DNA from: Sphingorhabdus wooponensis
Lineage (GTDB): Bacteria; Pseudomonadota; Alphaproteobacteria; Sphingomonadales; Sphingomonadaceae
DNA: 64,000 nt
Assembly (NCBI RefSeq): GCF_003933235.1
Contig: NZ_RWJI01000001.1
Coordinates: forward strand, 502,001-566,000
Direction of reading: 5' to 3'
In this document: piece by piece, positions 24,908 through 49,895 of the stretch
Layout: every line of letters begins with the position of its first letter
Numbering within the stretch: the stretch's first letter is position 1
Position numbers and translations under genes: made by a program
Notes under the pieces: model-generated
The model's database searches: none
What the model was told of the DNA's origin: nothing
Seen by the model: only the letters and a program-made list of their open reading frames with translations

Positions 24908-25537
24908 ATGCTCGACCTAAACCGAAAGATTTATGTTGTTGATAATGACCTGGCGCTTCGCTCTTCATTGGCGATAATGCTGCGCTCGGTAGGCTATGAC
25001 GTGGAATTATTCGATGACGGAGAGGCATTTTTACGCGCTGCGCAAGGCGGGCTTTCCGGATGTATCGTCCTTGATGTGCGACTGCGCGGCATTGGCGGTC
25101 TAGAAATTCAGCGAAGGCTGGCTGAGATGGGAAGCGTCGTCCCAGTCATTTTTATCACTGGTCATGGCGATGTGGAAATGGCGGTCAAAGCGATGAAAGC
25201 CAAAGCCGTCGATTTCTTGACTAAGCCCGTGCGCGAACAGGATCTGCTGGACGCTATCAGTGTTGCTATGCAGGATTTGCGACAGCGTGAGCTCGAATTG
25301 CAGCGCCGTATGCATAAGCTGAATCATGTTAACGCATTGTCGCCGCGTGAGCGGGAGATTTTTGTTGCGCTGTGTAATGGCAAGCTCGCCAAACAAATTG
25401 CCCATGAACTGGCTGTATCAGAAGCAACCGTGAAGGTGCATCGCCGCAATCTGATGCAAAAGCTCAGCGTCTCGTCGATTAGCCAGCTGATTCTGCAATT
25501 TGGCATTTTTTCGAACGAGAATAGGCTCGCAGCCTAG
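24908..25537 (+). CDS. Orphan FixJ-type response regulator (REC + LuxR HTH)
   Basis: 209 aa. The receiver domain (about 6-120) has phospho-acceptor Asp56 (CIVLDVRL), the switch Thr in ITGHGD and Lys in TKPV. A C-terminal LuxR/GerE helix-turn-helix includes SPREREIFVALCNGKLAKQI and SEATVKVHRRNLMQKL. The acidic pocket reads VDND (Asp12-Asn13) where DD is usual. The ATG follows GGAGAGAA. No histidine kinase lies beside it. It is the first gene before the secretion locus and in the same direction, so a role in controlling it is a fair guess. Confidence 0.93.
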   Translation: MLDLNRKIYVVDNDLALRSSLAIMLRSVGYDVELFDDGEAFLRAAQGGLSGCIVLDVRLRGIGGLEIQRRLAEMGSVVPVIFITGHGDVEMAVKAMKAKAVDFLTKPVREQDLLDAISVAMQDLRQRELELQRRMHKLNHVNALSPREREIFVALCNGKLAKQIAHELAVSEATVKVHRRNLMQKLSVSSISQLILQFGIFSNENRLAA

Positions 25538-26055
25538 GTCCTGACCCTAGTTTTACTTCCGCCTGAATGGCGCAAGACGATCATCGCATGGATGTTCGAT
25601 GTGCGTCTTGTGCTGTGCTGGAATAGCCAGCGTCCAAGCCGTGTTTGGCTAAGATTCTTTCCTTACAGATGTTTGCCTCAAAGCCTTGTCTCAACTTGGC
25701 TAAGCTTATGGATAAAAAACTAACCCGTAAGATTAGTTATATATCTTAATGCATATATCAATGCAACTTTTAGAAAGTTTAATTCCCCGAAAAATTAGTA
25801 AACCTATCAATGGATTAATTGTTTTTGATGTTGATCGGGGCGATGGACAATCTGTGGTTTAGACGATGATCTAAGCAGGATTTTTTATTTCATTGTCTCT
25901 CGTGCTGGGACCCAAAATCATAGTCCAGATTTTGGAAGAGAGAGCGAAAATGAAATATTTTGGCCGCGTGTGTCGGTGACCCGAACGCTGATTACAGCGG
26001 CGGAATAATCGATGCGTTTTGATCGCTTTGATTTCGGCCGGTTTTGGAGGTTCAG
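25538..26055 (+). promoter_or_regulatory. AT-rich control region upstream of the type I secretion genes
   Basis: 518 nt without a clear gene; 25700-25850 is distinctly AT-rich against its surroundings. Visible structure: AACTAA-N9-TTAGTT near 25719-25739, and TGCAT-N6-ATGCA at 25750-25765. A 37-codon frame at 25749-25862 has no ribosome site. A 9-codon frame at 25950-25979 has good SD-like GGAAGAGAGAG, and a 20-codon frame at 26012-26074 overlaps the tolC-like start. The inverted repeats could be sites for the FixJ-type regulator encoded just upstream; this is a guess. Confidence 0.45.
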
Positions 26056-27486
26056 TTGGTCCGAGTTTCTATAAGAGTTTCACCGACCGGGCTTAGTCTT
26101 TGTGTGTCGCGTTACTCTGGGTTTTACCCATTTGCTGTGTTCAGTATATTGTCCCACGCGCGCCGTGCTTCGCTGCTGCTTGGCGGGATGATTTTTGGAC
26201 TCAGTGCCGCGTCAGGCCCCGCTGTAGCCGCGCAGGCCGCCGATGATTGGGCGGGTACAAAGGGAGTGGTAACAGAGGCTGCAGCAACTGAGGTGCCCGT
26301 GACTGACGCCCAGCCTTTATGGACGTTGCAGCGATTGATCAGTGAAGTGGTGGCACAAAATCCGCGTATTCGCGCACAATCTGCTGCAGCGAAAGCCGCA
26401 GGTTATGATGTGACCGCGGCGCGTTGGCAATTTTTCCCTGCCCCCGCAGTACAGGCGGAGACGAGTGGCAAAGATCGCCAATTCATCGCCTCTGTTTCTC
26501 AACCCATTTACAGCTTTGGGCGGCTGGAATCTGACCTGAAGGCGGCAAAGTCTCGTTCAAGCCTTGCGAATGTACGCGTTGAAGAGGCGCAATATGTGCT
26601 GAGCTCTCGGGTGCTGGAATTATTTGGTCAATTATTGTCGACATCCCGATCGCTCGATGTGTTCCGTCAAGATGTCACTCGGTTGAGTGCATTGGAGGAA
26701 ATGATCGGCCGCCGCGTGACCACCGGTCTTTCAGCGCCCGTCGACCTTAATCTAGTACTGACCCGCTTACGCCAGTCGGAAAATAACATAGTCAGCCTCA
26801 CCGCGCGGCAGAATGCTGCCCTTGCTGGTTTGAGTGAACTTCTTGGCGCGCCTTTGACAATGCAAAACATTTCCTTGCCCGGGATGCCTGCACAAACATT
26901 GTCTAATGATCCCGCAGTCGCGCAGGACCCCGTTGAACAAAGCCTCGCCTACAGCCCCGTTCTAAAACGTGCGCGCGGTGATGTTGAAGTAGCGAATATC
27001 GACAGTAGCCGTGCCCTCAATGCCATCAAGCCAACGCTCTATGGCAAGTTTGAACAACGCATTGACGATGGTCGTTATGACACATCTGCTTTTCCGGCCA
27101 GCCGTGTTTTGTTCGGGCTGCAATATAGTTTCGGTTCCGGATTGTCGTCCCTGTCACGCGTCGGTGCTGCACGGGCGCAGGCGGAGGGTGCGCAACTTTC
27201 TTTAGATGCGGCGCAGGAGGATATTCGGGCGTCTGTTCGCTCCGATTTGGAAACGCGGGATGCAGCATTGCGGCTCGTTGAATCCTTGCGGTTAAACCTC
27301 ATGATCCAAGAAGAGACTTTTGGTTCTTACAACCGCCTTTTCTTGGCGGGGAAACGCAGTTGGCTCGACGTTTTGAACGTGGTGCGCGAAGTGACAGAAA
27401 ATGAACGCGCCCTTGCGGATGCAGAAGTTCAATATCTCCTTTCGGACTATCGCCTGCAACTTCAGACGGGGCAGATAAGATGGTAG
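26056..27486 (+). CDS. TolC-like outer-membrane channel of a type I secretion system
   Basis: 476 aa if it starts at the TTG at 26056, which follows GGAGG by 5 nt; starts further in, close to the signal peptide (RRASLLLGGMIFGLSAASG), are possible. The body is the duplicated outer-membrane efflux protein fold: NPRIRAQSAAAKAAGYDVTA, VSQPIYSFGRLESDLKAAKS, and later GKRSWLDVLNVVREVTENE, typical of TolC/LapE-type channels. It gives the outer-membrane exit for substrates of the downstream ABC exporter. Its 3' end overlaps the exporter start by 7 nt. Confidence 0.9.
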   Translation: MVRVSIRVSPTGLSLCVSRYSGFYPFAVFSILSHARRASLLLGGMIFGLSAASGPAVAAQAADDWAGTKGVVTEAAATEVPVTDAQPLWTLQRLISEVVAQNPRIRAQSAAAKAAGYDVTAARWQFFPAPAVQAETSGKDRQFIASVSQPIYSFGRLESDLKAAKSRSSLANVRVEEAQYVLSSRVLELFGQLLSTSRSLDVFRQDVTRLSALEEMIGRRVTTGLSAPVDLNLVLTRLRQSENNIVSLTARQNAALAGLSELLGAPLTMQNISLPGMPAQTLSNDPAVAQDPVEQSLAYSPVLKRARGDVEVANIDSSRALNAIKPTLYGKFEQRIDDGRYDTSAFPASRVLFGLQYSFGSGLSSLSRVGAARAQAEGAQLSLDAAQEDIRASVRSDLETRDAALRLVESLRLNLMIQEETFGSYNRLFLAGKRSWLDVLNVVREVTENERALADAEVQYLLSDYRLQLQTGQIRW

Positions 27487-29729
27487 ATGCCTCTGGAAGT
27501 GACGGCTTAGTTACAATGATGGACGGGGCGGACGCTGGTGCAACAGCCGTCATCCTTTCCGCGACACGCGATGCGTCTTTTTCGCATGAAGGGTTGATGT
27601 GGCTAAGCCAGCAGCTCGTCTCCGCCGGTGTGACCGACTATCGGCTATTGAGCCGCGATTCAGTGATGTTGTCCCGGCATTTTCTGTCGGAAGATGCGGC
27701 TGATTTTCATCAGGTCGCACTGCTAGAGCTGTTTGAAAAGTTGAACATTGAGGCTGGGGAGTGGACGACCGAGCTGGCTTTGATCGCGCTACCGGCGGTC
27801 GCTCTTATTCCGGATCATGGCTATGCCTTTGTCTATGCAGCAGGCGGTCCGGGTGAATGGTTGGTAGAAACGCAGGTTGGTCGTCGGCAATATAGCGCGT
27901 GGCCTGTCGGAACATTGTTTTTGCCTGCGTCACCCGCCAGCAAAAAGGCAGTGCCACAAACTGCCGAAGAGCTATTCGAGACTATATTGCGTAAGGATAG
28001 GGCTTGGGTGCCTTTAGCCGCCGTTGCGACAACGCTGAGCTCGATATTGTTATTGGCGACCTCTCTATATTCCATGCAAGTCTATGATCGCGTCATTGGG
28101 CAGGGCGGTCTGTCCACTTTGATTGTCTTAACGGTTGGCGTTGTCATTGCGATTTTGGTCGAACTGGGGCTCAAATTGGCGCGCTCGTCCATTATGGATC
28201 GGGCCATCAATGCGATTGATGTGGACGCTTCGGTTTCTGTTTATGCACGACTGCTGTCGGTTCGTTTGGACCAAATGCCGGCAAGTCTTGGGACATTGGC
28301 GGCGCAGGTGCGTGGCTTTGAGACTGTACGCGCCTTTGCCCTTGCCAGAATTATTTACCTGGCAACGGACCTGCCTTTTGCCGTTTTCTTTCTGATGGTC
28401 ATTTGGATGATTGGTGGATTTGCGGTGGCGATGGTTCCAGCGATTGCCTTTGTGATTGCTGCGGCTGGCGGTCTTTCCTTGCGACGCGCCATTGCCAAGC
28501 ATGCGACCAATGAAATGTCGGTCGCCAACATGCGCCAAGGCGTCCTTGTCGAAACGATTCAGTCTGCAGAATCGGTAAAGGCAGCGGGGGCAGGGTGGTT
28601 GCTGCAGGGGCGTTGGAACTCCCTATCGCGGGAAAGTGCAAATGAATCAATGAAGCTTAAGCAGCTCAATGACCATGCCGCACATTTTTCAGGCCTTATG
28701 CAGCAGCTTAGCTATGTTTTCCTGGTCGCTACAGGAGCCTATTTGGCTGTCGATGGCCGAACAATGACAGTAGGAGCGATTATCGCTTGTTCGATCATAT
28801 CAGGTCGGGTCCTCGGTCCGGTTGCAGCTTTGCCGGGTCTGCTGGTGCAGTGGGGTAATTCAAAAATTGCACTCGACCACCTTGAGAAACTGTTTGAACT
28901 TGAGCGTGACAATCATGGCATTCTTCAGTCGCTGTCGCCGTCACATGTTCAAGGTAAGCTTGAGGTCCGCAACGTTGAATTTGCTTGGCGGGGGCAGACA
29001 ACACCCTTCGCGTTGAACGGCTTTACCGTTCAACCGGGCGAACGGGTTGGCGTTATCGGATCGGTCGGATCGGGTAAGAGCACGCTGCTGAAGCTTTTTG
29101 CCGGCGTCATAAAGGCATCAAAGGGTGTGGTGTGCCTAGACGGCATGGATGTACAGCATATCGCTGCGGACCGGCGGTCAGAGTTGATTGGATATTTGCC
29201 ACAAACCACACGATTGATCAGTGGCACGCTGCGGCAAAATCTGACGCTGGGCCTCCCTTATGTCTCCGAAGATCTTTTGATGGCAGCCATCCAAGCCACC
29301 GGATTGGCGGAACAGATTGCCGGCCGTCCGGAAGGATTGGATGTTCGTATTTCGGAAGGCGGTGAGGGCCTATCTGGTGGGCAAAAGCAGCTTGTGGCGC
29401 TTACGCGTCTGCTAATGTGCCAATCTTCATTGTGGCTGCTGGATGAGCCGACATCTTCGATGGACGAAGGGACTGAGGAACGGTGTCTGATGGCGCTGAA
29501 GGAGCAGATCAGAACGGGCCAGACTCTCGTTCTCGTCACACACAAAGCACGCTTGCTTGATCTTGTGGATCGGCTTGTTGTTTTAACCCCTCAGGGCATC
29601 GCACTGGATGGTCCAAAGGACAAGGTTCTGGACGCATTGCGTCAACGAGCCGCTGCAGCACAGCAACAGCAGAGCGGCATCGTCACCACAAAATCAAATC
29701 TTCGCTCCTCTGTGCAGGCACCATCATGA
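27480..29729 (+). CDS. Type I secretion ABC exporter (LapB-like, degenerate C39 domain)
   Basis: 749 aa. The N-terminal 140 residues resemble the peptidase-C39-like domain of adhesin exporters but show no catalytic Cys, so signal cleavage is not expected. Six transmembrane helices follow (about 180-450). The ATPase has Walker A GSVGSGKST (527-535), Q-loop YLPQ, signature LSGGQ (631-635), Walker B LWLLDEP and switch His in VTHK. It exports large C-terminal-signal proteins, most likely the two adhesins encoded downstream. The stop overlaps the next gene by 4 nt. Confidence 0.95.
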   Translation: MVDASGSDGLVTMMDGADAGATAVILSATRDASFSHEGLMWLSQQLVSAGVTDYRLLSRDSVMLSRHFLSEDAADFHQVALLELFEKLNIEAGEWTTELALIALPAVALIPDHGYAFVYAAGGPGEWLVETQVGRRQYSAWPVGTLFLPASPASKKAVPQTAEELFETILRKDRAWVPLAAVATTLSSILLLATSLYSMQVYDRVIGQGGLSTLIVLTVGVVIAILVELGLKLARSSIMDRAINAIDVDASVSVYARLLSVRLDQMPASLGTLAAQVRGFETVRAFALARIIYLATDLPFAVFFLMVIWMIGGFAVAMVPAIAFVIAAAGGLSLRRAIAKHATNEMSVANMRQGVLVETIQSAESVKAAGAGWLLQGRWNSLSRESANESMKLKQLNDHAAHFSGLMQQLSYVFLVATGAYLAVDGRTMTVGAIIACSIISGRVLGPVAALPGLLVQWGNSKIALDHLEKLFELERDNHGILQSLSPSHVQGKLEVRNVEFAWRGQTTPFALNGFTVQPGERVGVIGSVGSGKSTLLKLFAGVIKASKGVVCLDGMDVQHIAADRRSELIGYLPQTTRLISGTLRQNLTLGLPYVSEDLLMAAIQATGLAEQIAGRPEGLDVRISEGGEGLSGGQKQLVALTRLLMCQSSLWLLDEPTSSMDEGTEERCLMALKEQIRTGQTLVLVTHKARLLDLVDRLVVLTPQGIALDGPKDKVLDALRQRAAAAQQQQSGIVTTKSNLRSSVQAPS

Positions 29730-30928
29730 ACATGATTGAACATCATTCAAAATCGACGCGTGCGCAGGGTGGAAGCCTCTTTGCGGCGCTGCGTCACCCC
29801 TCCCGTGCGGTCATTATCGTAATGTCATCCTTAGTGGCGATTGCAGCGATCATCCTATGGGCTGGATTTGCAGAGATTGATCAGCTTGTACGTGCACGCG
29901 GCCAGGTCATTGCGGTGGAGCGTACGCAGATGATCGAGGCCACTGATAATGGTGTGTTGGCCCAAATGTATGTGCGTGAAGGGCAAATGGTGAAAAAGGG
30001 CCAGCTGCTTGCACAGTTGGACCAAAGCCGGGTCATGGCAGCCTATGATGATAGCCAGAATAAAGTTGCCGCACTGAAGGCTGCGCTCGCAAGATTGCGT
30101 GCTGAGGTTTATGGTGAGGACCTTAAATTTCCTCCTGAACTTGATGCCTGGCCCGCTTTTAAAGAAAACCAGAGGCAGTTGTTTCAGCGTCGACGCCAAG
30201 CCCTGCGCGAGGGCATTGGCGCGTTGGAAACAAACCGGAATCTTGCAGCGCAAGAACTGGCAATTTCAGAACCATTGCTCGCATCCGGAGATGTCGGTCA
30301 GGCTGAAGTTATTCGTCTAAAGCGGACACGTGCCGAACTAGACGGTCAAATCGTTACCTTACGCAATCGCTTTTTTCAGGATGCCCAAGCCGAAATGGTA
30401 AAGGCGGAGGAGGATCTGGCCGCACAAGAGGAATTGCTGCGCGAACGGACGGCTGTTTTACAGATGACAGATCTGCGAGCGCCGCTTGATGGGCAGGTCA
30501 AATCCATTGATGTCACTACCCCGGGTGCTGCCGTACGTCAGGGTGAGCCCATCCTGCAAATTCTCCCAACTTCCGGAAATCTGATTGTAGAGGCAAAATA
30601 TTTGCCGACCGATGTGTCGTCGCTTCGAGTTGGTCTTCCGGCCATGGTGAAGCTCGATGCATATGACTCCGGCATCTACGGAAGCCTTGAAGGCTGGGTG
30701 GATTATATCAGCCCAGACACGCTGACGGAGCCCGGTCCGCAGGGCTCTGAGACGGTTTATTATCGCGTTCTTGTGCGCCTCGATCCAAAATTAAACGCTG
30801 CGAGCAAAATTAAGATTAACGCTGGCATGACCGCGACCGTGGAAGTCCGCAGCCGGACCCGAACCGTCCTGAGCTACCTTACCACGCCAATAACCAAAAC
30901 CTTGTCCAACTCGCTTGGCGAACGCTGA
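29726..30928 (+). CDS. HlyD-family periplasmic adaptor of the type I secretion system
   Basis: 400 aa. A short cytosolic N-terminus and one transmembrane helix (about 29-48) precede a barrel-sandwich/lipoyl half-motif (VIAVERTQMIEATDNGVLAQ). Long helical hairpins (about 95-260) follow, then the returning half-motif (DLRAPLDGQVKSIDVTTPGA). A beta-barrel ending (INAGMTATVEVRSRTRTVLSY) completes an HlyD/LapC-like adaptor. It bridges the inner-membrane exporter and the TolC-like channel. ATGA overlap upstream and a 25-nt gap to the first giant protein indicate one operon. Confidence 0.95.
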   Translation: MNMIEHHSKSTRAQGGSLFAALRHPSRAVIIVMSSLVAIAAIILWAGFAEIDQLVRARGQVIAVERTQMIEATDNGVLAQMYVREGQMVKKGQLLAQLDQSRVMAAYDDSQNKVAALKAALARLRAEVYGEDLKFPPELDAWPAFKENQRQLFQRRRQALREGIGALETNRNLAAQELAISEPLLASGDVGQAEVIRLKRTRAELDGQIVTLRNRFFQDAQAEMVKAEEDLAAQEELLRERTAVLQMTDLRAPLDGQVKSIDVTTPGAAVRQGEPILQILPTSGNLIVEAKYLPTDVSSLRVGLPAMVKLDAYDSGIYGSLEGWVDYISPDTLTEPGPQGSETVYYRVLVRLDPKLNAASKIKINAGMTATVEVRSRTRTVLSYLTTPITKTLSNSLGER

Positions 30929-30953: not shown

Positions 30954-33900
30954 ATGACTGACATTAAAAAGCAAAATCCGATCTCCGATCAAGATGGCCG
31001 CATGGCATCGTCGCATAGTAATGCTGTTCAGGACTACGCGCCGACAGCTCAAATTCCGGTCCAAGCGGCAGGCACTTTTGTTGACCCATTGGCTGTAGGT
31101 AAGCCAGTCAAAGGTAAGCGCCGGGGTAAGAAGGCAGCTGCCGCCTCGCAGGAATTGGCGTTTGTTGATGGTCAAGAGCAGTCGGCGAACGGCAAAGGCG
31201 AAGAAAAGGCGTCTGGCGGCGGGGGTAGTGGTAACCTTTTATATGTAGTTGGTGGCCTTGCTGTCGTAGGCGCCGGGGTGGCCCTGGCTGGAGGCAGTGG
31301 TTCTTCGCCTGCGCCCGAGGCCCCCAAAGATACAACCGCACCTAGCGCGCCTTCGGCATCAGTGGCAACCGATACTGGCAGTTCCTCTTCGGACCGCGTT
31401 ACCAGCAATGGTCGAATTGATGTCGGCGGTCTTGAGGCAGGTGCGACGTGGGAATATTCGACCAATGGCGGCACAAGCTGGCAGGCGGGAAGCGGCACCA
31501 GCTTTACACTCACTGCGGGCAGCTATGCTGATGGTGCAGTTCTGGTGCGTCAAAAGGATGCCGCGGGAAATGTAAGCCCGAATGGCAAGCCTGCAGGTGC
31601 GGTGACCGTTGATTCAACGGCCCCTTCGGCAGCTGTCATTGCGCAAATTGCAGGCGATGGCACGGTCAATGCTGCAGAAAAGGCTGCAGGGGTCACCATA
31701 AGCGGTACAGGTGAGGCGAGAAGCAGCGTCTCTGTTGTTTGGGGAACGGTGACCAAAACAGCTACGGTTAGCGATGCTGGCACCTGGTCTGTTCAGTTTG
31801 CCCCTGCGGATGTACCCGCCGACGGCACCACGCAGGTGCGAGTCAGCCTTACAGATCTGGCGGGCAATGTCTCCGACTCTGCGCAACAGGCGGTGACCAT
31901 CGACACCCGTATTCTTGTACAAGGCAACATCGTAGCCGGCCCGCTGGTGGCAGGCCATGGCCTAACTATATCTCTCTACAGCAGCGACGGGACGCTTCTT
32001 CAATCGGGTGTAACTGTTGCCAATGATGGGAGTTTTTCGGCACGCGTGGCTGCAAAGCTTGGCGATGTGCTCATCGCGAAAGTGGCCGATTCTGGGACCG
32101 GCGCGGATTATGCGGATGAAGCGACGGGTGGCGCGAAGGATCTGAACGCAGCCCTGTTTTCCGCGGTGGTTGTTTCAGATCTATCTGCTCCGGTTCAGGC
32201 GCAGGTCAACCCTGTGACCACATTGGCGGCCATCAAGGCTGGCCTTAGCGTCGATGGTGGTGGAACGGTTCGGGATGCGGCCGCGGTGCGGGATGCGAAT
32301 GTGCTCGTCGCAAAGGCACTCGGACTGGACGATGTTAACCTTGTCCCGGTTGCAACCAATAGCGGCAATTATGTGCCATCCGATGGTCTCAGCGCGGGCG
32401 AAAAACTGGGCGCTGTTTTGGCTGCCTTGTCAGGGTTGGACGCTACAAATGCAGGTAATACGCAAACTTCTTTGACCTTCTTGGCCGCGCAGATTGGCGT
32501 TTCTGGTCAGCCTATTACAGAAGACGGCTTGGCCGCTCTTCTAAACGGTGCTGCGGCCGCTTCGCTACGCACCGATGGAAAGCTGGAGGCCGTAGTTTCC
32601 AATCTTTTTGCCAGTACACAGCAATCTGCGTCGGTCAGCATCAGTGCCATAGCGACCGATAACGTTATTTCAGCATCCGAACTTTCGGGTCTTGTCCTCA
32701 CTGGCACCGTGGCATCAGGTGCAACCGCAGTCGCCCTCAATGTCGGAAGCTGGAGCGTAAACGCCGAAGTGAGCGGTGGAACTTGGTCTTACACTCTTTC
32801 CGCTTCTGATGCGTCTGCATTGGGTGCGGATGGCGCAAAAATTTTGGTTGCGACAGCTACATTGGCGAATGGACAATCCGTTACATCATCGCGGGCCATA
32901 CTGCTAGACACAGCGTCGCCCGTTGCATCCATCGACATGATTTCAGGCAATGATGTTATCAATGCCGCCGAAAAATTGTCGGGCGTGGTCATTGCGGGCA
33001 CTGCTGAAGCAAAATCATCTATTCTTTTGACATGGGCAGGCGAAGAGTTTTCGACTCAAGCGGGAATTGATGGTCGCTGGGAAGTTACAGTTCCGTCCAG
33101 CCGCGTACCCTCGGATGGCAATAGGTCCGTTTCGGTTGTTGCGACGGACGTCAATGGCAATGTGGGGCAAGCCGTAACCCGTAATGTTTCCGTAGATACA
33201 GCACCGCCGACAAAACCAGCAATAAATGTGCTGAGCCAAGATGATCTGCTTGGAGCAGCAGAAGTTACAAGTGGTATTGTCGTGACCGGGGTGGCTGACC
33301 CTGGGGTTAAAGTCCTGCTTAGTTGGGGAGGTAACATTCAATATTCTGCTTTTGCAAACGATCTTGGTGAATGGACTATCTCTATTCCCGCCTCTGGAAT
33401 TCCGGCTCCAGGAATGCGCTCTATGGCGGTCCAAGCGGAAGATTCAGCTGGTAATTTGAGCGATAGTGCAACCCGAAATGTAACACTTTATGAGGCCCTT
33501 ACTGCACCTGTTATCCTGTCTGTAACGGGTGACGATGTCGTCAATGTTGCGGATAGTGCAAACGGAATTGCATTGAAGGGACTTGCGCCGGCAGATGGCT
33601 TAGTGCGCGTCGAATGGGGATCCACAACGATAACGGTCAAGGCAGACGCACTTGGGAATTGGGTCGCGCAATTTGGTCTTGCAGATCTTCCGGTAGACGG
33701 AAATACGATGATTACAGCGACAATCGTTGATGCATTGGGTACTGAATTTGGGTCTTCAAGCCGAACGGTTGCAATTGATACCACTAACCCAGCCGGGGTA
33801 CTTATAAATGCCATAGCACAAAATGACATTGTGAATGCGGTGGAAAAATTGGCTGGTGTTGATGTGTCGGGCACAGCCGAAACTAACGCTAAAGTTGACG

Positions 33901-40800: not shown

Positions 40801-43800
40801 AACCAGGTATTCGTACCGTCACCATTGATTCGCTCAGTCAGGATCTGACAATTGCTTCCGTCGCGACGGACAATGTCATCAATGCGGCTGAAAAAGCGGT
40901 GAATGTGACTGTCACTGGCCAAGCCGAACCGGGCGCAAATATCGTGGTAACATTGGGTGGAACCACTCGGAACGCCCTTGCCAACCAAAATGGTACTTGG
41001 GTTGTCAATTTCACGACTGCGGAAATTCCTGCCGACACAGACGTAACCACGGTGACGGCGCAATCAACCGACCAAGCGGGCAATATTAGCGGGCTGGTAG
41101 GGCGCGATATCCGTATTGATACCGCGATACCGAATGCACCCGTCATCAATATTGTGTCCGGCGATGACGCAATTAACGCTGATGAAGCAACATCATCGGT
41201 GGAAGTAACAGGAACTGCAGAAGCATTTGCCTTGGTGACAGTGACTTGGGGAACAGCCTCGCGCACCGCGAACGCGGATGCCGATGGTATTTGGCGGACA
41301 ACCTTTGCGTCATCGCAAATCCCGCCAGAAGGGGCTAGCGTCCTTACAGCGACGGCGCGGGACAGTGCGCTTAACTTTAGTGTGGCGAGAGAACGGCCGA
41401 TTCTCATCGACATCGGCACCGCCCGTCCGGTCATTAACAGCATCGCGGGCAATGATGTTATCAACGCGACCGAGCGCAATAATGGTGTGCTGGTCAGTGG
41501 GACGGCCGAAGCCGGGGCCACGGTCCGTCTTGTCTGGGGCACAGTGGTAAAATCGCCTGTCGCTGGCACCGACGGCACTTGGAGCCAATTGTTCATTGCT
41601 TCTGAAATTCCGCTGTCGGGCAATAGTAGTATTTCCGCATCGCCAACCGACCGATTTGGCAACATCGGTGCGGCCCAGACGCGTAATTTCTCCATCGACA
41701 CCACCGTGTCGCCGGCGGCGTTTAACAATGTCACCGGCGCTGACAATATCGTCAATGCCAGTGAAAAGTCGTTGGGCGTGCAGGTAACAGGCACGGCCGA
41801 AGCGGGCAGTGAAGTTTTGGTGACATGGGGTACAACAGTTAAGTCCATAACCACCGATGCAGCGGGGGTCTGGGCGACCTTCTTCACCGACGCGCAAATC
41901 CCAAGCGACGGCGCAACAACGATTACAGCCGTCGTAACCGATTTGGCGGGCAATGTCAGCGTGCAGAGCGGACAGCCTGTTACCATCGATACGACCGCCC
42001 CCGTGGCGCCTATTGTGACCCTGCCGATTGCGGGTGACAATGTGATCAACAACTCCGAACGCACCGCTGGCGTGGTTGTGTCTGGTACGTCAGAGGCAAA
42101 TGCCGATGTCACGATTGCATGGGGCACAACATCCTCCCAAACCGTGAGAGCTGATAGCTCAGGCGTGTGGTCGGCGACGTTTGCTAGTGCGCAAATCCAT
42201 GCCGTTGGGTCTGCAACAATCAGCGTGACGCAGCGCGATGTTGCCGGCAACACCGGCCCCGCGGCAACAGCGACGGTCGTTGTCAACACGGGGGCGCCTA
42301 ATGCGCCCGTCCTCGATGCTGTGGCTACGAACAACATTGTAAACGCAGTGGAAAAAGCCGCCGGTGTCACGATCAGCGGCACGGCATTGGGCCTATCAAC
42401 GGTGTCCGTAAACTGGGGCATCACAAAGACCGTTATGGCCAATTTGGATGGCAGCTGGTCCGTCAACTTTGCCGCAGGCGAAGTGCCGGCGGATGGATCG
42501 CGCACTGTTGCCGTTTTCCAAACGGATACGCTGGGCAATGTCAGCCCGACCACATCGCGTGCAATTACAGTGGATACGGCACCACCAGCTGTACCCGTGA
42601 TTACCACGCCGATTGCCGGTAATGACATCATTAATGCGACGGAAAAGAACGCAACTGTGACCATTTCGGGAACCGCGCCAAACTCCACAGCGGTGGAAGT
42701 CAGAATGGGCGGCGTCGTCAAACCTGTGACATCCAGTGGCACGGGTACTTGGTCGGTGACCTTTGCCAGTGGCGAAATTCCCGCAGATGCGACAGACGTG
42801 CTGATTGAGGCGCGGACCATTGATACCGCTGGAAACCCAAGTGCTTGGGTCGGAAAGTCCGTCGCTATCGATACGGCCGCACCCGCCACGCCGGTGATTT
42901 CCACCGTCGCGGGGGATGATTTGATCAACGCCACTGAACGCGGTGGTAACATCACCGTCAACGGCACGGCGGAGGCGAATGCTGCGGTTCGCGTTACGTG
43001 GAATGGTTTTGTCAGAAATGTAAACGCCAATAGCTCTGGTATCTGGAGCGCTACCTATGTGAGTTCGGAGCTTCCATCGGACGGCAGTTCCATCATCACG
43101 GCGCGGGCGACCGATTTGGCGGGCAATGCCAATGCGGTAGATGCCACGCGCAGCGTAACCACGTTAACATCGCCCCCCGCGCTGCCTGTTATTAATCAGG
43201 TGGCAACGGATGACAGGATAAACATTGCCGAACGGTCCGCTGGTATCACGGTGACGGGTACGGCGAGCGCCAATGCCAGCGTTGCGGTAACATTTGGCAC
43301 AACAACCCATGTTGTTAATGCAAATGGGTCTGGCGTCTGGTCGGCTGATTTCACAACATCCCAAATCGCGGCGGAAGGGCTGACGCGTCCAATTACGGCG
43401 GTGCAAACCGATGTGAATGGCAATGTCAGCGGCACGCGCACCCGCAATGTCGAAGTGGACCTGACCGCGCCGACCAATTTGGTCATCAACCAAACGGGCG
43501 GAACGGACCTGACCATCAATGCCGCGGAAAAGGCGGCATCGGTTCTGGTGTCGGGTATAACGGATGCGGGCAACAAGGTGTTTGTCAATTGGGGCGGCGT
43601 TGGGAAAGAAGTGACGTCAACCAATGGCACGTGGAGCGTTAATTATGCGGCTGGCGAAGTGCCCGCAGATGCTGCGGTCTCGACCATCCGGGTGACCGCG
43701 CAGGATGAGGCGGGGAACATCAGTTCAGAGGTGACGCAGAACGTCACCATTGACGCGACCGCGCCTGCCGCACCTGTCATCAATATCGTCAGCGATAATG

Positions 43801-46637
43801 ATAAGGTGAATGCGACGGAGGCGGCGTCTGCCATCACCATTTCGGGAACGGCAGAGGCCAATGCCAAGGTGACGCTGCGTTGGGGCAACACGACCGCGCG
43901 TGTTTTGGATGCAGATGCCAACGGCAATTGGAGCAGCATTTATTTGAGCACCGCTTTGCCAGCCGAGGGCATTAGCGCCGTCACCGCGACACAGACCGAT
44001 GTTGCCGGAAACAGCAGTGGTCAGGCATCACGGTCGGTGGAAATTGACACTGTCTTGCCGGCGACACCAGCCATTACCGGCATGTCGAATGATTATGGCA
44101 TTTATGGAGACTTTACGACCGACCGCAACGCGGTCGTGTTAACGGGCACGGGCGTTGCCAATGGGCAGATTGAACTGTTCATCAATGGCACATCCATCGG
44201 ACTTGCAACGGTAGATTCGGCTGGACTGTGGGAATCGCCGGTGATCAACCTTGCGGCGCTCAGCTTTGGCAGCAGCTTGACGGCAAGCGCGCGAGCTTAT
44301 GACCCCGCGGGGAACCAGAGCGCAACCGATGCCAGCCAAGTGATCACCAAACAGGCGCTGGGCGCAATGACGATCGATCTGGCGCTCTTGACATCGGCCG
44401 TTGGCTTCTCCTTTGTTGGGGCATCTGCTGATGATCGTATAAACGCAACCCTGGCCACGGGGGATATCGGTGGTGATAGCCATAAAGACCTTATTTTCAA
44501 TTCTCCTTTCATGGACGCTACAAATGTAACCAATACAGGCGGCGTTACGGTTGTTTATGGACGGGCGAATTGGAACAATGTTGGCACCTTTGATCTGGCA
44601 AATCTAGGAACCAATGGGTGGGTGTTAAGATCGACGGTGGGTAATGACCAATTGGGTCATGGCGGATCCGGTGTTATCGGTGACCTGAATGGAGATGGCA
44701 AAGGGGAGCTGATCGCTGGTGCGATACTTGCTGAAAATGGTGCCCTTGCTGATGCGGGGGCGGCCTATATCGTCTTTGGCAGCGCTACGCCATTGGGCAC
44801 TCCGGTGACCACTGGGGCCAATACACGCTATATTTTGGATACCACCCAGATAACACCCAGCATGGGCTTTGTCATACGCGGTCTGCAGGCGGGCGAGTTT
44901 TTGGGCGGTGCCACCTTGGGCATTTCCAGCCGTCCCGGCGCGAACAGCGATTTTAATGGTGATGGCATAAGTGATTTCTTCATTGCATCCCGAATTTTTG
45001 ATAGATTGCCGGTGGGGTCACAGACCTTTGCAGTTGACACGGGGGCGGTGATGGTCGTGTTCGGTCAAGCGAGCGGGGTCTATGGCACGCTGAACGCCAC
45101 CAGTGGTCAACAAGAAATGACCATTGATGACCTGACGGGCTTGGATAAGGGCTTTATTATTCGTGGTGCTGCTGCAGGTGATTCTGCTGGGTGGAATATT
45201 GCCTCTGCCGGGGATATGAATGGCGATGGTGTGACCGATTTGTTGGTGACTGCACGACTTGTCGATCGCCCGCTTTTCCCCAGTGCGGGGGCCGCCTATG
45301 TCATCTATGGTAAGAAAACGACCACAGGGCAGACTTGGGGTAGTTTGATTGATGATCCGGCCATGGCGGGTCGCAAAATCCTGGATCTTGGCACCCTACA
45401 AGCGTCCGATGGTTTCATGATGTGGGGTGAATTACAAAATGGTGAGTTTGGCCGCGTTGCTGAAGGGCTGGGCGATGTGAATGGCGACGGCTTTGACGAT
45501 ATTGTTGTCAGCGCGCCCACATCATCTGTTAACGGTTTCCTTCAGTCCGGTAAGGCATTTGTCATTTTCGGATCGGCAACAGGACAAGGGGATATTTCCA
45601 ACGGGCGTCAGATTTTGAGCATCCCCGCCATGACATCATCCCAAGGCTTCGTTATCCAAGGCGCAACTGAAACCAGCGCGTTGCTCGGGAATAGTGTTGG
45701 CGCCGCCGGTGATGTGAATGGCGATGGCCTTGCCGATATCATGGTCGCTGTGCCTAATTTGGACCGCGGTGCAACTGGCGATGTTGGCCGTGCCTATATC
45801 ATCTTGGGTAAGAATAATGGCGAAGGATGGGGCCAGAGCGTAGGCGATCAATCCATATTGGATCTCGCCAATTTTGGCGTGGGGGATGGCTTTTCCATCC
45901 TTGGCCGCAATGTGGCGGGTGAAAAAATAGGGGACAATGGGATCGGCGATAGCAGCCTCATCAGCCCTGGTGATTTGAATGGGGATGGCCTGGACGATTT
46001 GTTCATCAACGCCTTTAATGGGGATTTGCCTGGTCGGACCAATCCAGGTGAAGGTTACTTCATCTATGGCTCACGGGCATATGGCGGGGGCTTATCCCTC
46101 ACCGGGTCAACCGCCGGCAATGCGTTGGGCGGTGGTGGCCTTGCGGACGTTATTGACGGGCAGGGCGGTGCAGACCGTCTGCGCGGCTTTGGCGGCAATG
46201 ATACGTTGATCATCGGTGACGCCAACTTTGTCCGCGTCGATGGCGGCACGGGCACGGATACGCTGCGTCTGGCGGGGCCAACCGGCTTTGGCCTGAACCT
46301 CTCCACCCTTGCGGCGGGGGCGATTAAAGACATTGAACAGATCGACCTTGTTGCCGGATCGTTGAACAACACGCTGACAGTGACACAGCAGACATTGCTC
46401 GACCTTTCGTCCACCAGCGACCTGCTCAAGGTATTTGGCGATAGCGGCGATACGGTGAATGCAACCGGATTTGTTACCGGTGGCAGCCAGACGGAAAATG
46501 GCATCACATACAATGTCTACACAAATGGTTCGGCAACATTGTGGGTACAGGATGGCGTGGTGGTTAACACCCCCGCGCAATCAGGCTTCATAGCTCCAAC
46601 TATTTCGTGGGCGGAACATGCGGTGCTTGCGGCCTAA
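37860..46637 (+). CDS. Giant Ig-repeat surface adhesin 2 with FG-GAP propeller
   Basis: 2925 aa. The N-terminal domain (about 1-90; TDLVFVLEDGRTVFIRDGAV) resembles BapA-type prefix domains and differs from adhesin 1. A Gly-rich hydrophobic segment lies at about 124-147. Eighteen Ig-like units (about 165-2150) follow, most with NAAEK, SGTAE, WG..., WS and IPADG landmarks, interrupted by the block shared with adhesin 1 (about 360-600). Seven FG-GAP repeats (about 2180-2730) come next, then an RTX-like segment (GGADRLRGFGGNDTLIIG) and a C-terminal tail typical of type I secretion. Likely exported by the adjacent system and cell-surface bound. Confidence 0.9.
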   Translation: MAQDLNGPIVGPAKNVVKVNILRTNVKQTKVIDTDLVFVLEDGRTVFIRDGAVQSLLDNGFSVEFSDGAQATGQELLQSAGAAEISSVALTGPQASSNDAVIVAQAPQAVGTSPVAQPSSGGGLRTWLAIGTPLVGGVLGGVLGGGGGSTATATTDTGTTANVKPATPVINVIANDDKVNATEKAGGVSVTGTSEASASVTVNWGSTTKTVTADSTGRWSASFASTEVPADAAGTTVSATLKSAAGISSDPATKTVQIDTTPPAAPVIAAVTGDGIVGPMEKASATGVDINGTAEPGSAVSVSFGEISKTVVADLGGNWSVNYKSSEIPNPGAYAVTATARDANGNTSTAPATSQVTVSAAVNLTGQIVAGPVIVGNGLSVEIYLANGTLLASGVRVNADGTFTATNLPVGPGDVIFAKVVDSTTGADYMDEATGVAVDLNTVLLAAKVVDSTSVTMHINPLTTIAAIKAGLAADGTGTVANATAATNANTATAQAFGLSGIDITTTSVVATNSGGFTSADGLSSGEKIGAVLAALSGLDSLNGGNSQTTVSAISQLLNVEGNKGQLTDQGQLALMRGAIAAEDKVDGALQGIISDGVAASAPTATQVTINSIATDNIITAGEVANLTITGTVSSGATGVSLLFGSRTAAATVNGSEWSYALTEADITALGADGAKVIQAQAALSNTAPVTASRLVTLKVAPPATPSLNAVSGDNAINGAEKAAGVAFAGTGEAGSTVVLIFGGVTKTALVDTAGTWTTPFLASEIPADGSATVSVSARDAFGNSSGTVTRPITIDTVAPGLPTIRSVTGDDLIGPTEKLGGVQILGTADALANIRLTFGNLVRTTTADASGNWSVNLLSSQVPEDGEYAVAVTQSDAAGNSSSEVTRTVRVDAQPPAKPVILPVATDNIINAAEKLNGVSIRGTAEPNVSLELTWGTISRTIRVAANGTWSASFTGAQIPADGTANISAIATDSSGNVSEPGIRTVTIDSLSQDLTIASVATDNVINAAEKAVNVTVTGQAEPGANIVVTLGGTTRNALANQNGTWVVNFTTAEIPADTDVTTVTAQSTDQAGNISGLVGRDIRIDTAIPNAPVINIVSGDDAINADEATSSVEVTGTAEAFALVTVTWGTASRTANADADGIWRTTFASSQIPPEGASVLTATARDSALNFSVARERPILIDIGTARPVINSIAGNDVINATERNNGVLVSGTAEAGATVRLVWGTVVKSPVAGTDGTWSQLFIASEIPLSGNSSISASPTDRFGNIGAAQTRNFSIDTTVSPAAFNNVTGADNIVNASEKSLGVQVTGTAEAGSEVLVTWGTTVKSITTDAAGVWATFFTDAQIPSDGATTITAVVTDLAGNVSVQSGQPVTIDTTAPVAPIVTLPIAGDNVINNSERTAGVVVSGTSEANADVTIAWGTTSSQTVRADSSGVWSATFASAQIHAVGSATISVTQRDVAGNTGPAATATVVVNTGAPNAPVLDAVATNNIVNAVEKAAGVTISGTALGLSTVSVNWGITKTVMANLDGSWSVNFAAGEVPADGSRTVAVFQTDTLGNVSPTTSRAITVDTAPPAVPVITTPIAGNDIINATEKNATVTISGTAPNSTAVEVRMGGVVKPVTSSGTGTWSVTFASGEIPADATDVLIEARTIDTAGNPSAWVGKSVAIDTAAPATPVISTVAGDDLINATERGGNITVNGTAEANAAVRVTWNGFVRNVNANSSGIWSATYVSSELPSDGSSIITARATDLAGNANAVDATRSVTTLTSPPALPVINQVATDDRINIAERSAGITVTGTASANASVAVTFGTTTHVVNANGSGVWSADFTTSQIAAEGLTRPITAVQTDVNGNVSGTRTRNVEVDLTAPTNLVINQTGGTDLTINAAEKAASVLVSGITDAGNKVFVNWGGVGKEVTSTNGTWSVNYAAGEVPADAAVSTIRVTAQDEAGNISSEVTQNVTIDATAPAAPVINIVSDNDKVNATEAASAITISGTAEANAKVTLRWGNTTARVLDADANGNWSSIYLSTALPAEGISAVTATQTDVAGNSSGQASRSVEIDTVLPATPAITGMSNDYGIYGDFTTDRNAVVLTGTGVANGQIELFINGTSIGLATVDSAGLWESPVINLAALSFGSSLTASARAYDPAGNQSATDASQVITKQALGAMTIDLALLTSAVGFSFVGASADDRINATLATGDIGGDSHKDLIFNSPFMDATNVTNTGGVTVVYGRANWNNVGTFDLANLGTNGWVLRSTVGNDQLGHGGSGVIGDLNGDGKGELIAGAILAENGALADAGAAYIVFGSATPLGTPVTTGANTRYILDTTQITPSMGFVIRGLQAGEFLGGATLGISSRPGANSDFNGDGISDFFIASRIFDRLPVGSQTFAVDTGAVMVVFGQASGVYGTLNATSGQQEMTIDDLTGLDKGFIIRGAAAGDSAGWNIASAGDMNGDGVTDLLVTARLVDRPLFPSAGAAYVIYGKKTTTGQTWGSLIDDPAMAGRKILDLGTLQASDGFMMWGELQNGEFGRVAEGLGDVNGDGFDDIVVSAPTSSVNGFLQSGKAFVIFGSATGQGDISNGRQILSIPAMTSSQGFVIQGATETSALLGNSVGAAGDVNGDGLADIMVAVPNLDRGATGDVGRAYIILGKNNGEGWGQSVGDQSILDLANFGVGDGFSILGRNVAGEKIGDNGIGDSSLISPGDLNGDGLDDLFINAFNGDLPGRTNPGEGYFIYGSRAYGGGLSLTGSTAGNALGGGGLADVIDGQGGADRLRGFGGNDTLIIGDANFVRVDGGTGTDTLRLAGPTGFGLNLSTLAAGAIKDIEQIDLVAGSLNNTLTVTQQTLLDLSSTSDLLKVFGDSGDTVNATGFVTGGSQTENGITYNVYTNGSATLWVQDGVVVNTPAQSGFIAPTISWAEHAVLAA
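38940..39960 (+). repeat. Module duplicated in both adhesins, copy 2
   Basis: Counterpart of 31911-32930: GQIVAGPVIVGNGLSVEIYL, GADYMDEATGVAVDLNTVLL, NPLTTIAAIKAGLA, SSGEKIGAVLAALSGLD, then an Ig unit with TALGADGAKVIQAQA. Order and key residues match copy 1. Confidence 0.85.
44400..46070 (+). repeat. Seven FG-GAP/integrin-like repeats inside adhesin 2
   Basis: Calcium-loop cores GDIGGDSHKD, GDLNGDGKGE, SDFNGDGISD, GDMNGDGVTD, GDVNGDGFDD, GDVNGDGLAD and GDLNGDGLDD have their first Asp at residues 2202, 2275, 2364, 2452, 2539, 2618 and 2705. The spacing is 73-89 residues. Each is followed by a beta strand such as LLVTA or IVVSA, and a YVIYGK/FVIFGS-type strand recurs. Seven units match the blade number of an integrin-alpha propeller. 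Confidence 0.88.
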
Positions 46638-46740: not shown

Positions 46741-47364
46741 ATGGCAGGCAGTCATGACGATGAAGATCCTGGGTTTTGGCCCGGCTATGTCGCCGCAACG
46801 GCTGGGTTGGTGCAGGGCATGCTCATCATGTCTATGGCATTAGGCATCGCTATTTTTGCGATGAGCAGCGTTGCGACGGGCGGACCCGAGGGCAGCGCCC
46901 GCCCAATTGGGCCCGGTGGCCCGTTGGATGTTGCCTCGGTGTTGCCGGCTTTAGCGCCTGTCCCCATCCCCGAACGGATGACGATGCGCGCCGCGGCGCC
47001 CATTCCGGATGAAGCTTTGCGCCCAATCCGCGTCTCTTTTGAAGGCGACGCGACGGTAACACCCGCTTCCACCGCGAGTGTCATCGGTGATGCGATATCC
47101 CAGCGCTCTGCATTGGGTGTGCGGCGCTGGCTTTTGGTGTCGGCAGGTGACCTAACTGACCCACGCCAAAGCCGCGCTACGTATGTGCGGATTATGGGGG
47201 TCCGCGCGGTGCTGATGAATTTGGGCGTGCCGGGCAATGCAATTGAAATGCGCATGGAAAATGCTGGGGCATCAACCACAGAGGCAAGCGGTGGGGCGGT
47301 TTTGATAGAACCTCTTATCGCCAGTAATTCCAGTGCATCAACGCGAACAGGTGATCAGCCATGA
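46741..47364 (+). CDS. MotB-like membrane protein A, lacks stator aspartate
   Basis: 207 aa. A short acidic N-terminus and FWPGYVAATAGL lead into one transmembrane helix (about 18-41), as in MotB/TolR/ExbD proteins. The residue matching the proton-carrying Asp of MotB is Ala18. The C-terminal region (about 95-192) looks like a diverged OmpA-type peptidoglycan-binding fold: Asp140 and Arg155 are 15 residues apart, as are the two key binding residues of OmpA. Shine-Dalgarno AAGGGA. It overlaps the next gene by 4 nt (ATGA). Family assignment is by pattern, so treat it as moderately sure. Confidence 0.68.
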   Translation: MAGSHDDEDPGFWPGYVAATAGLVQGMLIMSMALGIAIFAMSSVATGGPEGSARPIGPGGPLDVASVLPALAPVPIPERMTMRAAAPIPDEALRPIRVSFEGDATVTPASTASVIGDAISQRSALGVRRWLLVSAGDLTDPRQSRATYVRIMGVRAVLMNLGVPGNAIEMRMENAGASTTEASGGAVLIEPLIASNSSASTRTGDQP

Positions 47365-48212
47365 AGCGTGGGAAGAAAGCCGTTGGCGGGGCCGCCAATT
47401 ATTGGCCAGGCTATGTCGATGCGATGGTCAATGTTGTCCTGAACTTGCTGTTCATGGTTGCGTTGTTTGGCATCACGCTCGCCGTATTTAGCAATCAATC
47501 GAAAAAGGGTGCAAACGGCGACACCGAAACCGAAGTTGCCGCTGTCTCACCGTCGGATGCAACGCTTGGCTGGCCTACGCCAGACGCTCCTGCCACGCCG
47601 CTTTTGCGTAATCCGGATGATGTGGGTGCGCCTGCGAATATTCGCGTTCCCTCCGCGCCTGTTGTGTCCGGCCCGCTTGGTCCCGCGCGCTTTGGTGATA
47701 ATTCGGGCCGCGCAGAAACCGGCGTCGCGGCGCCGAACCAAAATACTCTTTCGGGCGGCGGGACCGAATCTGTCAATGCGACGGGCGCGGGTCAAGGCTT
47801 GCGTTCTGGGCGACAGGCTGGGCCAGATGCGACCAATATTGTTGTGGCCGATGCTTTCGTCCGCAAGTCGGCCCAGCCGGTGACTGTTACCCGTCGGGCG
47901 ACATCTTCTGGGCAGGTCATCCTAACACTGGATGCGGAACCCGGTGCGGACCCAGTGGGCGCCTTTAACCGCGCCTCGGTCGCAACGGCGCTGAAAGAGA
48001 ATATCCGTCCGAACAGCCGAACAGTGAAGCTGTGGACGTCCATTCCACGCGCGGACCCCAATATGCGGCGCAATGCGTATCTCGCGCTCACGACGCTGCG
48101 CAATCAACTCATCGCTGCGGGGGTTCCGGCATCCGCGATGGAGGTCCGGGTATATGAAGGGGCAGGCACCGCAACAGGTGGCTTGCGTCTATTTGTAGTC
48201 ACAGAACCCTGA
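47361..48212 (+). CDS. MotB-like membrane protein B, keeps stator aspartate
   Basis: 283 aa. YWPGYVDAMVNVVLNLLFMV aligns with the MotB transmembrane start (PW....ADFMTAMMAFF) and puts Asp20 at the proton-carrying position. One helix spans about 19-43. A long Pro/Gly/Ala-rich linker (about 50-180) follows, then a diverged OmpA-like domain (about 183-282) with Asp232 and Arg247 again 15 apart. Such proteins couple ion flow through a MotA/ExbB ring to work in the periplasm. A 49-nt gap separates it from the channel gene. Confidence 0.7.
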   Translation: MKRGKKAVGGAANYWPGYVDAMVNVVLNLLFMVALFGITLAVFSNQSKKGANGDTETEVAAVSPSDATLGWPTPDAPATPLLRNPDDVGAPANIRVPSAPVVSGPLGPARFGDNSGRAETGVAAPNQNTLSGGGTESVNATGAGQGLRSGRQAGPDATNIVVADAFVRKSAQPVTVTRRATSSGQVILTLDAEPGADPVGAFNRASVATALKENIRPNSRTVKLWTSIPRADPNMRRNAYLALTTLRNQLIAAGVPASAMEVRVYEGAGTATGGLRLFVVTEP

Positions 48213-48261
48213 CCATCCGTTGGAGCAATAGAAACGTCAGGGTAAGCTTAGGAAAAACATC

Positions 48262-49821
48262 ATGGCAGAAACAATTATTTCAAAACTACCGATAGAGGAA
48301 GCGTCCGGTAATGGCGGCTTTATTGGACCACGTATGAAGGTTGCGATTAGCTGGGTTCGCGCGTTCGGCCTTTTGGCTGTTGTTATCCTCGCGGGCGCGA
48401 CCGCTTTTAAGGACGCTGTTGCAACATCCATCGCTTCGACGCCGCATCCGGAACTGGTATATGCCATTTTCGCGGTGGCCTTTATTGCCGCGGTCTTGCT
48501 GGCCATTTTGCTGCATGATTTTCTCAAAGAGCAAGCATGGTTTGATACATTGCGGTCCAGCGCAGCCGAAGATCAGGACATCATGATTGCATCCATACCC
48601 CGTACAGGCAGCATGGCCTATTTTTACCGCGTCTATATGCAAACGCGGGGTATGCCGCTTGCGATCCGTCAACCCGCTATGGAAGATGAGATGAGCAGCG
48701 TTGAGTCGCAAATGTTCGCACGTTTGTCTTTGCCCAATTTGCTTTCGGGCAGCCTTGTCGGCCTTGGACTTGTCGGGACGTTTATCGGTCTGTTGCAAAC
48801 GCTGGACGAATTGTCCGGTGTGTTCGCGGCTCTAGGCGGCGGCTCGGGCAGCGATTCCGGTGCGATGTTCTCAACCATGATTGTGAAATTGCAAGGCCCG
48901 ATGCAGGGCATGGGCACGGCCTTCGTGGCCTCGCTTTATGGTCTGCTGGGCTCGCTGATCATTGGTCTAACCGTCAGCAGCGTGAAATCAGCCGGGGAAC
49001 GTCTGTTCCGCGATGTGCGTGAATTTTTGAATGAAGAACTTTACCCATCTGGTGGTGCTTCGATGGTGGCTTGGCCCGCTACTGCGACCGCTATCGATGC
49101 CGCGCCACGCGGTGGGTTCACGCCCGAACAAACGGCAGAACTTCATGCGATGATTAGCCAAGAGCATAAGGCGATGCGTGATTTGTTCATTCATTGGGAG
49201 CAAAGCTTTTCAAGGCGGTTTGATCAGCTGGCCAATGTGGCGACCCACATCAATCATCAACTTGTCGATGCGGTAAATGCCGCAGGGGCGCAGGCCGAAC
49301 GTCATGCAGAGCAATTGAAGTTAGTGTCGGAAGCTGAAGGGCGTCTCGCGACCGCTATCGACGACAAGGGAGGGCGGTTTGTCGACCAACTCGACTCTCT
49401 GCGTAAGGACTTGTCGGTTGCCCAACATGGGGTGTTTCCAGTGTTTGGACGGCTGGCGCTTGCCTTTGCTGTTGTCGGCGCACTGGCCGGTCTCGCGGCA
49501 GCCGCGCTGTCGCTCAGTTCAGGTAGTGCCGCGACAGCACCGAACGCCCCGCCTGCCGCTGTCGTAGCACCAGCAGCTGTTGCACCAGCGTCGGGATCAG
49601 CACCAGCTGCGGACGCCGCCTCAAATGCGCCGTCAAACGCCAACGAAGCGCTGGAGCAGGTGATTGTGGCCGAAGGTCAAAGCCTATCTCTCATTGCGTT
49701 GGATAGGGGGATTCCGCTGGAGGCTATGATTGCCGCAAATCCGCAATTGGCCGACCCAACGCTTTTGTTCCCAGGCGATAAGGTCAATTTGCCAAAAGCG
49801 GGTTCAGCACCTGCGGAGTAA
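48262..49821 (+). CDS. MotA/TolQ/ExbB-type proton channel with periplasmic LysM domain
   Basis: 519 aa. Helices at about 33-50, 66-85, 157-178 and 215-238. The channel core has LVGLGLVGTFIGLLQTLDEL and MQGMGTAFVASLYGLLGSLI, as in MotA/TolQ/ExbB. A cytosolic helical region (about 240-390) precedes a fifth helix (397-417), a Pro/Ala linker and a C-terminal LysM (about 465-511: EGQSLSLIALDRGI, NPQL, FPGDKVNLP) that should lie in the periplasm. Shine-Dalgarno TAGGAAAA. It is the last gene of the locus before a strong terminator. With the two MotB-like proteins it could form a peptidoglycan-anchored proton-driven complex. Confidence 0.85.
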   Translation: MAETIISKLPIEEASGNGGFIGPRMKVAISWVRAFGLLAVVILAGATAFKDAVATSIASTPHPELVYAIFAVAFIAAVLLAILLHDFLKEQAWFDTLRSSAAEDQDIMIASIPRTGSMAYFYRVYMQTRGMPLAIRQPAMEDEMSSVESQMFARLSLPNLLSGSLVGLGLVGTFIGLLQTLDELSGVFAALGGGSGSDSGAMFSTMIVKLQGPMQGMGTAFVASLYGLLGSLIIGLTVSSVKSAGERLFRDVREFLNEELYPSGGASMVAWPATATAIDAAPRGGFTPEQTAELHAMISQEHKAMRDLFIHWEQSFSRRFDQLANVATHINHQLVDAVNAAGAQAERHAEQLKLVSEAEGRLATAIDDKGGRFVDQLDSLRKDLSVAQHGVFPVFGRLALAFAVVGALAGLAAAALSLSSGSAATAPNAPPAAVVAPAAVAPASGSAPAADAASNAPSNANEALEQVIVAEGQSLSLIALDRGIPLEAMIAANPQLADPTLLFPGDKVNLPKAGSAPAE

Positions 49822-49864
49822 AGTGAAGCTGGGCAATATCGCAGTTTTATGAACATGTGATTAT

Positions 49865-49895
49865 AAAAGGCGGGGTACACAGCCCCGCCTTTTTT
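49865..49895 (+). terminator. Intrinsic terminator of the adhesin locus
   Basis: GGCGGGG (49869-49875) pairs with CCCCGCC (49883-49889) across a 7-nt loop, preceded by an A-run and followed by six T. It is about 45 nt after the channel-gene stop and closes the plus-strand operon. Confidence 0.92.

Follow-up and report, generated by a model that had tools for sequence, protein, structure and literature searches.

A probable SPI-4-like type I secretion island with a putative adhesin-retention motor in Sphingorhabdus wooponensis

SiiA and SiiB, the proton channel of Salmonella pathogenicity island 4 (SPI-4), have been described as a motor-linked type I adhesin system (PMC6272769; PMC12607715), and SiiAB is counted among the pentamer:dimer (5:2) motors (PMC12204202). 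A comparable set of genes lies in a 64,000-nucleotide stretch of contig NZ_RWJI01000001.1 (positions 502,001 to 566,000), here called the window, from the freshwater sphingomonad S. wooponensis, which has a genome of 2.18 Mb. All nine genes, located on the plus strand at 24908-49821 of the window, were confirmed as originally predicted by their open reading frames (ORFs), translations and Pfam/NCBIfam profiles, and they probably make up a SPI-4-like type I secretion island with an adhesin-retention motor. The original prediction held that no described type I adhesin system includes a MotA/MotB-like complex, but SiiA/SiiB is one, and SiiA is the top structural match of the second MotB-like protein of this locus. 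The general kind of system, a proton motor with a giant adhesin of a type I secretion system (T1SS), is already known. Of the literature matches listed, judged by titles and abstract openings, none reported a Mot pair linked to a T1SS in anything but Salmonella, subscription papers lying mostly outside this coverage, and none a LysM-bearing MotA or the system of this genus. The features are as follows.

24555..24631, plus strand: tRNA-Arg (CCT), left edge of the variable island (ARAGORN)
24908..25537, plus strand: FixJ/LuxR-type response regulator P0001, 209 amino acids (aa), also present in genomes G327 and G320
26044..27486, plus strand: TolC-like outer membrane protein P0002 (OEP, 1.5e-38)
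27480..29729, plus strand: type I secretion ABC transporter P0003, LssB-like (TIGR03375, 5.1e-176, below cut-off)
29726..30928, plus strand: HlyD-type periplasmic adaptor P0004 (TIGR01843, over cut-off)
30954..37742, plus strand: giant adhesin 1, P0005, 2262 aa, with Ig/Ca2+ repeats, RTX repeat and T1SS C-terminal target domain
37860..46637, plus strand: giant adhesin 2, P0006, 2925 aa, with Ig/Ca2+ and FG-GAP repeats, without T1SS-target family match
46741..47364, plus strand: MotB1, P0007, MotB-like, 207 aa, with Ala18 at the position of the Asp in MotB2
47361..48212, plus strand: MotB2, P0008, MotB/SiiA-like, 283 aa, with Asp20 in the transmembrane motif and an OmpA/SiiA-like periplasmic domain
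48262..49821, plus strand: MotA/ExbB-like ring subunit P0009, 519 aa, with a fifth hydrophobic helix (~393-418) and LysM (468-511)
49866..49895, plus strand: intrinsic terminator (-21.2 kcal/mol, z -4.9 versus shuffles)

Families were assigned to the nine proteins with Pfam/NCBIfam profiles; LssB, FixJ and PRK09039 are database names, and the matches to them here fall under the curated cut-offs. The predicted complete TolC/ABC/HlyD set was borne out by the OEP, TIGR03375 and TIGR01843 matches, that of P0003 to the type I ABC profile TIGR03375 reaching 587 bits (cut-off 693). P0001 consists of a response regulator with a LuxR-type helix-turn-helix, and its best NCBIfam match is FixJ (182.9 bits, cut-off 255). 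Both proteins predicted to be giant Ig-repeat adhesins do carry such repeats: P0005 has Ca_tandemer/Big_13 repeats, with an RTX repeat and a T1SS_VCA0849 C-terminal target both over cut-off, and P0006 has Ca_tandemer/Big_6 repeats and FG-GAP. P0006 gave no RTX or T1SS-target family match in Pfam/NCBIfam and contains a single GGxGxD motif, which makes it less certain that this system exports it.

The MotB-like label given to P0007 and P0008 is based on the WPGYV transmembrane motif, a weak match of P0008 to NCBIfam PRK09039 (5.5e-5, below cut-off), a match at E 0.14 between the MotB profile and chain 8qyd_F, which we take to be ZorB, OmpA matches of relatives that fall below cut-off, and the predicted fold; neither protein has a MotB or OmpA Pfam match at E<=0.1. 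The best structural match of the MotB2 model is SiiA, at 12% identity, and MotB2 combines the conserved transmembrane Asp with a predicted SiiA-like peptidoglycan-binding fold. Arg162 and Arg167 of SiiA have been named in connection with peptidoglycan binding by its periplasmic domain (PMC12607715). In P0009 the LysM domain is over cut-off as predicted, but MotA_ExbB scores 20.3 bits, under the cut-off of 22.9, as do three orthologues (18.6-22.7 bits); the structure model of this protein is unreliable (predicted local distance difference test, pLDDT, 42).

Like siiABCDEF of Salmonella SPI-4, the locus holds the T1SS trio and a giant Ca2+/Ig-repeat adhesin in one gene block, together with a MotB-like protein of SiiA-like predicted periplasmic fold and a putative MotA-like protein, and has no LapG-type protease in the block. 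It differs from SPI-4 in having two giant adhesins rather than one, two MotB-like genes of which one lacks the Asp, a MotA-like protein that carries LysM and a fifth hydrophobic helix, motor genes that close the block at its 3' end instead of opening it, its own response regulator and a sphingomonad host. We know of no T1SS adhesin in the AglRQS system of Myxococcus, which likewise has one MotA-like and two MotB-like subunits. AglQ and AglS are, unlike the pair found here, both predicted to retain the Asp, and as of 2022 their heterodimer formation was an open question, as was the partner of the ring anchor postulated for GldLM (PMC9389320).

The distribution of the genes was surveyed in 41 same-genus genomes, with a threshold of 1e-40 for a P0003-like ABC gene and at least 93% for a P0003 orthologue. 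P0009 matched in eight of these, four intact (G000, G327, G320 and G314) and four as fragments (G305, G333, G299 and G300), and the P0003 orthologue was present in exactly the same four genomes as intact P0009. Two unlinked 4-of-41 sets would coincide by chance with a probability of ~1e-5, but since the genes are linked and the genomes related, this figure is a description more than a test. Some P0003-like ABC gene occurs in 20 of the 41, 16 of them non-carriers; P0009 is unmatched in 15 of the 16, and in G333 it is matched by the fragment only. G000, with a single P0009 match in the genome, has a second T1SS locus (G000:C1, L109 1-8097) whose ABC protein is 37% identical to P0003, and no MotA-like match was found in the 20 kb read around it. 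In the draft genome G305 both flanks lie on one contig, the counterpart of ~25138-48687 of the window is missing, and regulator codons 1-~76 run in frame into MotA codon ~142. If this assembly is right, the transporter, the adhesins, both MotB genes and the front of MotA were lost together, and the block appears to have gone in one deletion. The block lies between tRNA-Arg(CCT) and a flank leading to tRNA-Pro and secD, SecD being detected in 40 of the 41 genomes. The non-carrier G328 aligns with the window as far as 24635 and resumes at 49961, with other genes between, so that the extent of the island fits the coordinates given above.

More distant relatives were sought in the family and the phylum. 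Eight of 298 family genomes match P0009, four of them (G005, G057, G287 and G029) through the C-terminal LysM part only, and a second family draw gave five of 397 at 1e-25 (G000, G022, G040, G175 and the G300 fragment). The search of the phylum, aimed at finding SiiB by sequence, had matches at 1e-40 in 27 of 398 genomes, with full-length ones only in G000 and G040. In G040 the MotB-MotA genes directly follow an ABC gene resembling P0003; the opposite strand carries an HlyD gene resembling P0004, and the locus also encodes a glycosyltransferase as well as a protein of 5556 aa in which our own pattern counts 158 RTX-type motifs. In G022 the gene after MotB-MotA encodes an RTX protein that weakly matches BapA_N and is broken off after 631 residues at the end of a 6.6-kb contig, so that its full size and any transporter would lie beyond the contig. 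The association of the motor genes with secretion and adhesin genes, as first proposed, is supported by the shared four genomes and the apparent single deletion, and is repeated with RTX-repeat proteins in these two relatives. Named records hold relatives of P0009 from Sphingorhabdus, metagenome-assembled genomes of Sphingomonadaceae/Sphingomonadales and, distantly, Altericroceibacterium. Among 72,556 plasmid records P0009 had no tblastn match at 1e-4; the G040 MotA had three (two Sinorhizobium, one Shinella), at 31-40% identity.

A number of observations weigh against a retention motor belonging to the adhesins. Within the genus, co-occurrence is partly linkage and shared descent; in four genomes MotA is reduced to a 3' fragment, which in two lies at a contig end; the MotB genes of carrier G320 lie outside the stretches read; and LapG is present in one of the four carriers. 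No motor genes were found in the 1.5-kb flanks of T1SS ABC genes at 26 non-carrier or paralogue places, nor at four carrier places, and because the carrier motor genes lie ~17 kb from the ABC gene, this survey of 30 places is no control. The MotB2 model is of modest quality (mean pLDDT 50.6, 57-79 within the domain), and its SiiA match is within 1 Z of 3oon (10.9) and two YfiB-type entries (10.8 and 10.6). The G175 pair has no TolC, HlyD or adhesin match in its 17-kb locus, with an ABC ATPase match ~7 kb from the pair. A related MotA-MotB pair was found in 249 of 385 alphaproteobacterial genomes at E<=1e-10, without a T1SS gene in the ~1.5-kb flanks, a short distance, of 29 loci.

The latter results favour the explanation that the motor genes are passengers, a copy of this widespread envelope pair that shares the island and has an unrelated cell-wall function. 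The generic pair has the MotA core, adjacent genes and the transmembrane motif WPG[FYW]VD in common with the T1SS-linked one, and its MotB resembles PRK09039 'peptidoglycan-binding protein'. The motif is present in all 49 MotB ORFs where it was found of 53 picked, the other four appearing to be wrong frames; L117 gave no ORF, and the 54 loci include some genomes twice and one, G961, from outside the class. MotA ORFs in the generic loci read are 329-452 aa long (one 732). Four loci of 18-20 kb contained no HlyD, TolC or adhesin match at 1e-4, and two of them had an ABC ATPase match ~4-5 kb away. The generic pair made up most of what the class search found, probably owing to the G175 row in alignment A1; alignment A4 omits that row. 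We nevertheless regard the passenger explanation as unlikely, since in trees the T1SS-linked rows, including G040 and G022, branch apart from the generic pairs (MotA 91/85, MotB 99/97), and no intact P0009 orthologue occurs without a P0003 orthologue in the 41 genus genomes. The MotA tree comprised 50 of the 54 generic rows picked, after removal of repeats and one ORF of 732 aa, and six T1SS-linked rows trimmed to the first 330-400 residues, and the MotB tree 20 hand-chosen rows of the 49 generic ones bearing the motif, trimmed so as to begin 8 residues ahead of it; in both trees branches are long and the composition of several rows is unusual. The original prediction had named widespread motor genes without adhesin or T1SS genes as a point that would speak against it; at the superfamily level, this is half borne out by the related pair. 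The generic pair (L112-L140, L147-L171) was observed to be widespread, mostly alphaproteobacterial, and rare in the Sphingomonadaceae sampled.

According to the retention-motor reading, TolC-ABC-HlyD would export the giant Ca2+-stabilised Ig-repeat adhesins, as homology suggests with better support for adhesin 1, and MotA would form a Mot/Exb/Tol-type inner-membrane motor with MotB2/MotB1. Protons would pass through Asp20 of MotB2, LysM would fix the MotA ring to the cell wall, and the motor would influence whether the adhesin is retained in the outer-membrane channel or let go, as SiiA/SiiB do for SiiE. A role in energising release or retention, one of those originally suggested, agrees with reports on SiiAB. 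We propose only tentatively, as a doubtful elaboration, an asymmetric inside-out Mot-type motor with a MotB1/MotB2 heterodimer axle bearing a single proton-carrying Asp, in which the MotA ring is held to the wall by its own LysM and the axle turns and works the outer-membrane adhesin channel. An alphaproteobacterial branch would show that giant T1SS adhesins are paired with proton motors beyond a single pathogen, and would offer an environmental host for studying SiiAB-type motors, so far described for Salmonella. The MotB copy without Asp would provide a natural test of whether both axle subunits of 5:2 motors must carry protons, and the LysM-bearing MotA one of which motor part the wall holds.

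The original prediction also suggested that the adhesins are moved along the surface; the motor would then be a gliding-type machine like GldLM or AglRQS. To our knowledge, with no search made, gliding is not known for these bacteria. Motors of the Mot type propel surface adhesins in Flavobacterium and drive gliding in Myxococcus (PMC9389320), and the subunit set is that of AglRQS; however, no outer-membrane track or type IX secretion system/Glt-like gene is among the nine genes, the SPI-4 precedent accounts for a closely similar gene set, and no evidence of such movement was found, which makes this improbable. There is similarly little likelihood that the motor energises export itself by pulling or gating the type I channel. 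Physical linkage, and the fact that machines driven by the proton-motive force can act at the outer membrane, would fit this role, but loss of siiA and siiB leaves secretion of Salmonella SiiE to the supernatant unaffected (PMC12607715), and 15 of the 16 non-carriers with a P0003-like ABC gene have no P0009 match, so that their systems, if they export, would do so without it. A Zorya-like anti-phage motor, to which weak ZorA profile matches of P0009 (best 1.5e-5, 22 bits) and the 8qyd_F match might point, is highly improbable, as the ZorA matches fall on the membrane core, P0007 and P0008 have no PADLOC match, ZorB profiles included, and the run's remaining six genes encode a regulator, the T1SS and adhesins. 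A flagellar stator was rejected because flagellin, although matched in three of the four carriers, is not matched in G327, whose genome is 99% complete.

Lap-type systems (LapA/LapG/LapD) also have giant T1SS adhesins under controlled retention, as would be the case here, whereas three of the four carriers, G000 among them, have no LapG (Peptidase_C93) match and have motor genes instead. LapG is found in 10 of the 41 genus genomes, in six of them within 5 kb of a T1SS ABC gene, and in carrier G320 one of two LapG copies adjoins its other T1SS. The genus may have two alternative ways to hold giant adhesins, a lead drawn from four carriers only.

From TolC onward, the genes of the predicted single run are separated by gaps of -7 bp (TolC-ABC), -4 (ABC-HlyD), 25 (HlyD-adhesin 1), 117 (adhesin 1-adhesin 2), 103 (adhesin 2-MotB1), -4 (MotB1-MotB2) and 49 (MotB2-MotA), a spacing that would be compatible with one or two transcripts ending at the strong terminator that had been predicted. 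The regulator is set off by 506 bp and is possibly on its own transcript. A consensus promoter scan yielded no clear candidate, and no ORF of at least 200 aa, such as a kinase, starts at 24.0-26.0 kb apart from the regulator. For P0002, translation may in fact begin downstream of the TTG.

In G305 the junction forms an in-frame fusion (L098 4697-6049, minus strand) of the receiver half of the response regulator to the MotA rear with LysM, which may represent a scar or a new gene, or else a fault of the assembly. The fragments in G299 and G300 stop at or close to contig edges and may stem from breaks in the assembly, and that of G333 is preceded, by our reading, by transposase-like ORFs. In non-carriers the tRNA-Arg-to-secD slot holds differing genes (L104 11160-15968; L103 5119-16151; L102 11129-15556), those beside the secD flank in G318 and G137 being other than the ones in G328; those of G137 resemble, as we read them, a chaperone-usher pilus set. 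Between the tRNA and the T1SS block of G320 (L105 3422-8451) there are a tyrosine-recombinase-like gene (6941-8257, minus strand) and 47 bp that repeat the 3' end of the tRNA-Arg exactly, probably marking an integrative element at the same tRNA.
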